Source of the DNA: an uncultured Nitrospiraceae bacterium
GTDB lineage: Bacteria > Nitrospirota > Thermodesulfovibrionia > Thermodesulfovibrionales > Dissulfurispiraceae
Assembly: GCA_903822005.1 (NCBI GenBank)
Contig: CAIJNL010000023.1
Span: 1-64,000 of the forward strand
Length of the DNA: 64,000 nt
Direction of reading: 5' to 3'
Within the stretch, counting starts at the first letter, position 1. Every line of letters starts with the position of its first letter. A model generated the notes under the pieces. That model was not told where the DNA came from, searched no databases, and was given only the letters and a program-made list of their open reading frames with translations. A program made the position numbers and the translations under genes. Positions 24,252-48,164 of this stretch are shown piece by piece.

Positions 24252-24280
24252 TTGATTTCTTGTTTGGGTAATGATATACT
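24252..24280 (+). promoter_or_regulatory. Sigma-70 promoter of the first cold-shock gene
   Basis: TTGATT (24252-24257), a 17-base spacer and TATACT (24275-24280). The expected transcription start (~24287) coincides with the first base pair of the structured leader, which supports both calls. Confidence 0.65.
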
Positions 24281-24285
24281 CAGTC

Positions 24286-24357
24286 AAGATTTTAGAAGTG
24301 TTTATCCGTGGGAGGCGACAGAGACTTTTAACTTTGTAGCTTTTTTTCTGAAATCTT
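24286..24357 (+). promoter_or_regulatory. Structured 5' leader of cold-shock gene 1 (paralogous RNA element, copy 1)
   Basis: An outer stem pairs AAGATTTTAGAA (24286-24297) with TTCTGAAATCTT (24346-24357): 12 pairs with one G-U. An inner hairpin (24315-24340) has loop ACTTTTAA and is followed by seven T. The same architecture with different bases precedes the second cold-shock gene at 47867-47940. The inner hairpin plus T run looks like an intrinsic terminator, while the outer stem could sequester part of it, so a temperature- or transcription-dependent switch is plausible. Function is inferred. Confidence 0.7.
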
Positions 24358-24383
24358 AAAACATTATTAGGAGGCAGTAATCA

Positions 24384-24584
24384 ATGGCTTCAGGAAAAGT
24401 AAAGTGGTTCAATGAGTCCAAAGGTTTCGGATTCATAACTGGCGACGATGGCAGTGACGTGTTTGTTCACTATTCGTCCATCGACGGTGGCGGGTTCAAG
24501 ACCCTTGCTGAGGGTGACAGCGTGACCTTTGAGGTGGAGAATGGCCCGAAGGGCCCCAAGGCAATCAATGTAGTCAAAAGCTAA
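24384..24584 (+). CDS. Cold-shock protein (CspA family)
   Basis: A 66-residue single OB-fold RNA/DNA chaperone. It has the RNP1 motif KGFGFI and the RNP2 motif VFVHYSSI, starts [16 protein letters not shown], and ends [16 protein letters not shown] lies just upstream. The copy at 47964 is ~80% identical in protein and shares the structured leader. It is monocistronic with its own terminator. Confidence 0.97.
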
Positions 24585-47801: not shown

Positions 47802-47866
47802 GCGGCATAACGGCATTGCCTTGCCCTATATACATTATTGCCCCGCTTATGCTAAGGTAGATACAG

Positions 47867-47940
47867 AGTTTCAGAAGTGTTTGTCAGCGGAACGCCACAA
47901 AGACTTTTAGCTTTGTGGCGATTTTTTATTTCTGAGAACT
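47867..47940 (+). promoter_or_regulatory. Structured 5' leader of cold-shock gene 2 (paralogous RNA element, copy 2)
   Basis: The outer stem pairs AGTTTCAGAA (47867-47876) with TTCTGAGAACT (47930-47940): ten pairs and one bulged G. The inner hairpin pairs CGCCACAAAG with CTTTGTGGCG (47893-47920) around loop ACTTTTAG, followed by a T-rich stretch. It shares loop sequence, spacing and layout with copy 1 at 24286-24357, but the paired bases differ in both stems. No strong promoter is seen upstream. Confidence 0.72.
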
Positions 47941-47963
47941 CATTTTGTAGTAGGAGGCAGCAA

Positions 47964-48164
47964 ATGGCTTTAGGAAAAGTGAAGTGGTTTAATGAATCAA
48001 AGGGTTTTGGTTTTATTACGGGAGAGGATGGAGAAGATCTTTTTGTTCATTATTCGTCAATCCAGAGCAACGGGTTTAAATCCCTTGCAGAGGGTGACAG
48101 CGTAAGCTATGAAGTCGAGAAAGGCCCGAAAGGCCCCAAGGCGATCAACGTAGCCAAACAGTAA
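47964..48164 (+). CDS. Cold-shock protein (CspA family), second copy
   Basis: A 66-residue OB-fold nucleic-acid chaperone with [11 protein letters not shown] (RNP1) and LFVHYSSI (RNP2), ending [16 protein letters not shown] precedes ATG 47964; a longer in-frame ORF from 47877 runs through the structured leader and is not real. The copy at 24384 is closely similar, and the shared leader suggests that they arose by duplication and keep common control. Confidence 0.96.

Follow-up and report, generated by a model that had tools for sequence, protein, structure and literature searches.

What does the structured stretch between the promoter and the coding region of a csp gene do in an uncultured Nitrospiraceae bacterium, and is it peculiar to one locus? 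The window considered here, that is, the whole stretch of 64,000 nucleotides analyzed, opens with the 3' end of a 23S rRNA gene (positions 1-91). At 24286-24357, between a sigma-70-like promoter and the csp gene at 24384, the layout described in the initial annotation is present: a perfect outer stem of 12 pairs (24286-24297 with 24346-24357) encloses the unpaired segment GTGTTTATC (24298-24306) and a hairpin, which is followed by seven T residues. The promoter, with its spacer of 17, places the predicted transcription start at about 24287, within the first pairs of the outer stem, again as had been proposed. The elements of this leader, copy 1, are as follows.

24252..24280, + strand: sigma-70-like promoter TTGATT-17-TATACT (promoter scan; its position clusters relative to the box in relatives)
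24286..24297, + strand: outer stem, 5' strand (folding, covariation, swap test)
24294..24304, + strand: box AGAAGTGTTTA, proposed 5' strand of an antiterminator; the core GTGTTTA resembles the CspB heptamer
24315..24340, + strand: inner terminator-like hairpin with loop ACTTTTAA (24324-24331) and one G.A mismatch
24319..24329, + strand: segment CAGAGACTTTT of the hairpin 5' arm and loop, partner of the box
24341..24347, + strand: T7 tail (T runs occur in relatives too)
24346..24357, + strand: outer stem, 3' strand (folding, covariation, swap test)
24369..24374, + strand: Shine-Dalgarno site AGGAGG (sequence)
24384..24584, + strand: csp gene 1, 66 aa, PF00313 (Pfam)

Folded alone, copy 1 is only modestly better than its shuffles (z -1.84), and its hairpin, which contains the internal G.A mismatch, was not reported by a simple terminator scan; judged by its sequence, copy 1 itself is a weak terminator. 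Because neither the fold nor the hairpin of copy 1 is striking in isolation, comparative evidence was needed. A second leader in the window (copy 2, 47866-47941) differs in its bases but shares the layout.

47866..47878, + strand: outer stem, 5' strand (folding)
47873..47883, + strand: box AGAAGTGTTTG (box:arm complementarity)
47893..47920, + strand: terminator hairpin (terminator scan), with a T run at 47922-47927
47928..47941, + strand: outer stem, 3' strand, with one bulge (folding)
47964..48164, + strand: csp gene 2, PF00313 (Pfam)

The two leaders are members of a conserved RNA family ahead of csp genes. Their earlier description as a pair of paralogous copies captured the shared layout but not its extent, as the family is spread over the Nitrospirota and has five members in this genome alone. 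A covariance model built from 32 leaders (R1) places the leader at five of the six csp genes of the genome, namely both copies in the window, one each on contigs C12 and C26, and a divergent one on C2. Among the csp genes most similar to that of copy 1, the hairpin lies upstream in 33 of 34 readable cases, most of them from the same family and order. At the level of the class, 163 of 200 sampled genomes have an R1 match, with at most eight copies per genome; at the level of the phylum, 112 of 295 sampled genomes do, among them members of groups that do not belong to the class. Named genomes were also scanned with a pattern that ignores csp. Most of the records hit bore the name Nitrospirae or Nitrospirota, and 66 matches had model support, 64 of them with readable flanks: csp follows directly in 61, and the remaining three directly precede the gene of a protein of about 128 aa. 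Four matches come from records labeled otherwise, three as Deltaproteobacteria MAGs and one as a Schekmanbacteria MAG, which may reflect errors of MAG naming or binning. A further 15 matches in scattered taxa were set aside; they are without model support, and about 16 would be expected by chance in the collection on a rough estimate. Within group f10/g25, none of the sampled genomes (G039, G051, G073, G077, G079, G081, G084 and G088) has an R1 match, although csp is present in both genomes checked, G039 and G051. A weak model match at L051:1101-1218 (minus strand), comprising a hairpin with a T run, lies between csp and another gene, whose product begins MGKKIYVGNL, a start resembling that of an RRM RNA-binding protein. 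Since the layout recurs in five of six csp leaders of the genome and in hundreds of relatives, we regard the leader as real; chance or simple duplication as the origin of the likeness is ruled out by the phylum-wide matches together with the covariation described below.

Is this a known family under another guise? No Rfam family matches the leaders in the window, as the initial annotation had anticipated. Searched as whole mRNAs, two of 20 relatives (L053 and L246) reached RF01766, the cspA family, and we considered membership on that ground. It was rejected for L053, the one sequence that we split: its coding part alone scored 98.1 bits compared with 85.4 bits when the leader was included, and its leader alone gave no RF01766 match at E values up to 10. 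The proposed distinction from the E. coli cspA thermoregulator is thereby borne out. A limited literature search returned no description of the leader, so that "unnamed" here refers to Rfam 15 and to the literature covered. The family is thus real and apparently unnamed, apparently a variant of the known csp leader switches.

Both stems are supported by covariation. Across 51 divergent leaders, 22 of the 25 pairs of the outer stem and hairpin have changed on both sides, with 97 double-changed cells compared with 36 in shuffles, and 87% of native positions pair compared with 43-59% in slid versions; covariation is well above both kinds of control, and the earlier observation that pairing is kept with different bases is borne out. 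Two other alignments showed a similar excess. Because alignments A5 and A3 were fitted to the model structure, we added a partner-swap test that is free of alignment. In 75 leaders, the 5' strand of the outer stem pairs with its own 3' region at a mean of -13.1 kcal/mol and with swapped regions at -10.7 kcal/mol, and swapped partners were as good as native ones in none of 20000 permutations. The hairpin is followed by at least five T residues in 100 of 108 leaders. Its suspected resemblance to a terminator is borne out by these T runs and by copy 2, which the terminator scan flagged, but copy 1 escaped that scan. By sequence, the inner hairpin is of intrinsic-terminator shape and stands with its T run between promoter and gene, where an attenuator would have it. 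In about three quarters of the same 108 leaders, 13-17 nt separate the end of the best -10 element from the box, which puts the predicted start at the foot of the outer stem. The promoter score alone was uninformative in this AT-rich DNA (101 of 108 leaders compared with 73 in shuffles).

A third helix competes with these two. The box, with the consensus AGAAGUUUUUG (in copy 1, AGAAGUGUUUA, core GTGTTTA), is the most conserved upstream element of the leader and is complementary to the 5' arm and loop of the hairpin, CAAAGACUUUU. The segment GTGTTTATC had been noted as present, but not its overlap with a box able to base-pair with the loop and 5' arm of the terminator; this pairing, which had been missed, would be the key to a transcription switch. 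In 112 leaders, 96.9% of the cells in the box:arm helix pair. When the RNA is cut before the 3' arm, at least eight box:arm pairs form in 95.6% of leaders, dropping to 38.5% after dinucleotide shuffling of the 5' region, and both copies in the window fold this helix when the RNA ends at that point. Because the helix shares the 5' arm with the hairpin and AGAA with the outer stem, it excludes both of them, which makes it a candidate antiterminator.

In the first 32 leaders, covariation of this helix was too thin; since box and arm hardly vary within the order, divergent members were added. Compensatory changes were then seen in L259 and L270, where box GGAGUAUUUUG accompanies arm CAAAGUAUUC, in a clade in which A-U has become U-A (box GGAUGU, arm GACA), and in L003 of the present genome, while in L110 the box and both hairpin arms are altered together. 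Among 25 divergent types, permuted box:arm partners equalled the native ones in 48 of 20000 permutations, and no partner signal came from sequence upstream of the box in the same test; a spacer-versus-arm control was left out, as the spacers are too short, as was a version overlapping the box. On alignment A5, antiterminator covariation exceeded all 500 shuffles, with a nearly invariant box and double changes mostly at one pair in one clade. The helix carries a G.G mismatch in the genus of the window. Complementarity of box and arm is thus well supported, and formation of an antiterminator in the cell appears plausible from it. The box would provide the upstream strand that excludes the terminator, as in attenuators, with limited covariation for this helix.

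Based on these features, we propose that the leader is a cis-regulatory transcription attenuator of csp, probably favored by cold and tuned by Csp, a reading to which we assign a probability of about 0.62. Transcription would begin at the foot of the outer stem, as the promoter position predicts, and in the nascent RNA the box would pair with the hairpin's 5' arm and loop to form the antiterminator. Should this helix be lost or overtaken, the inner hairpin would close before the T run and transcription would stop after about 60 nt; if it persists, polymerase would read into csp. In the read-through mRNA, the outer stem would then take up the box and cap the 5' end, leaving the Shine-Dalgarno site downstream. 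Equilibrium folding favors the terminator over the antiterminator at every temperature tried, and the switch must therefore be kinetic or protein-assisted. Cold would stabilize the AU-rich antiterminator and slow strand exchange. Csp has a preference for GUCUUUG or U-rich single strands; by binding the box or rearranging the helices, it could promote termination. The result would be a homeostatic feedback: scarcity of Csp or cold would switch csp on, and an ample supply of Csp would switch it off.

Could the leader instead act after transcription, its stems protecting the 5' end or setting translation by temperature-dependent refolding while the T run does little? The outer stem, a structure by virtue of its covariation, which is the strongest in the leader, can form only in read-through RNA, and copy 1 is weak as a terminator. 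A natural deletion, L252:1501-1579, is a csp leader that retains the outer stem and box without the terminator hairpin; this suggests an independent role for the outer stem, perhaps protection of the 5' end, and such a protective role would be compatible with attenuation as well. Precedents exist in the csp thermoswitches of E. coli, Listeria and S. aureus (reviewed in PMC8155936). A purely post-transcriptional leader, however, would make both the T run in 100 of 108 leaders and the complementarity of box and arm superfluous, and the Shine-Dalgarno site lies outside the stems. We consider this explanation rather unlikely, though it is the one that fares best beside attenuation.

A second alternative keeps the attenuator but reverses the sign, with Csp melting the terminator to raise its own read-through and the box serving mainly as a loading site for Csp. 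The core GTNTT[TC][GA] (GUNUUUG or GUNUUUA) occurs in 126 of 153 leaders, and three divergent leaders have exactly GUCUUUG. It resembles the published heptamer bound by B. subtilis CspB, whose consensus is d(GTCTTTG/C) and which was solved in complex with the RNA GUCUUUA (PMC7825780); E. coli CspE and CspC bind U-rich RNA (PMC4520561). The likeness of the core to these ligands makes binding of the leader by Csp plausible under either sign of feedback, and a GUNUUUG-like core would suit a loading site. E. coli CspA, CspC, CspE and CspD reduce intrinsic termination (PMC11648934), and E. coli Csps usually antiterminate (PMC11648934; PMC8307031), whereas B. subtilis CspB and CspD favor termination (PMC8307031). 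Reversal of the sign would also leave unexplained why the box is complementary to, and covaries with, the hairpin arm and loop. We favor negative feedback because binding of the box by Csp should free the terminator arm, and judge the reversed arrangement unlikely, although the usual behavior of the E. coli proteins points the other way. That the terminated leader is itself the product, a short U-rich Csp sponge or sRNA with csp read-through at a constant fraction, is improbable: the predicted RNA, about 60 nt long and containing a U-rich box and a U tail, would fit, as would up to eight leader copies per genome, but the conserved 3' strand of the outer stem beyond the terminator would go unexplained.

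How does the attenuator that we propose relate to known systems? Like the E. coli cspA thermoregulator (RF01766), it is a structured leader within a Csp-encoding mRNA, but it is a short one that contains a terminator-like hairpin together with a putative antiterminator box. Protein-feedback attenuators such as that of B. subtilis pyr, controlled by PyrR, place a mutually exclusive terminator and antiterminator in the leader of the regulated gene. The leaders described here differ from pyr in sequence and gene, in the proposed effector, which would be an RNA chaperone, and in an extra outer stem that would lock the box in read-through mRNA. The thermoswitches of Listeria cspA and S. aureus cspB and cspC, compared by description only, also involve alternative structures in a csp leader, but act on translation, and no terminator is described for them (PMC8155936). 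The cold-shock boxes of B. subtilis cspB and cspC, likewise compared by description, are conserved elements of csp 5' UTRs whose mutation alters expression; excerpts of PMC8307031 report effects of Csps on termination at several sites in that species and, within those excerpts, describe no terminator/antiterminator leader for these genes.

Many Nitrospirota have, no more than about 70 nt downstream of csp, a gene that encodes a conserved protein of about 128 aa. It occurs in the genome of the window (G000:C12:44829-45212 and G000:C26:3388-3735) and in relatives (L214-L233). The protein had no match in Pfam, NCBIfam, PDB sequence or fold searches. Three Cys and one His are invariant among 15 sequences, which suggests metal binding. 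At L114:2357-2473, L139:2129-2245 and L128:4056-4162, the leader stands directly before this gene with no csp in between, and the protein therefore seems to be part of the same regulon.

What is the relevance of such a leader? Csps are abundant RNA chaperones, and little is known of how their level is controlled outside E. coli and a few Firmicutes. Here csp is preceded, in a phylum that is mostly uncultured, by a strongly covarying RNA family that appears to be unnamed; the covariance-model search proposed at the outset found many further csp leaders with the motif. The anatomy of the leader suggests that Csps may regulate themselves through their effect on transcription termination. More tentatively, and with less confidence than for the attenuator itself, we speculate that a three-helix attenuator operates across much of the phylum, in which Csp would sense its own free level by reshuffling or occupying the antiterminator of its own leader, and cold would turn csp on by kinetic trapping of that helix. 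The leader would offer a compact system for direct tests of how cold and Csps affect co-transcriptional folding.
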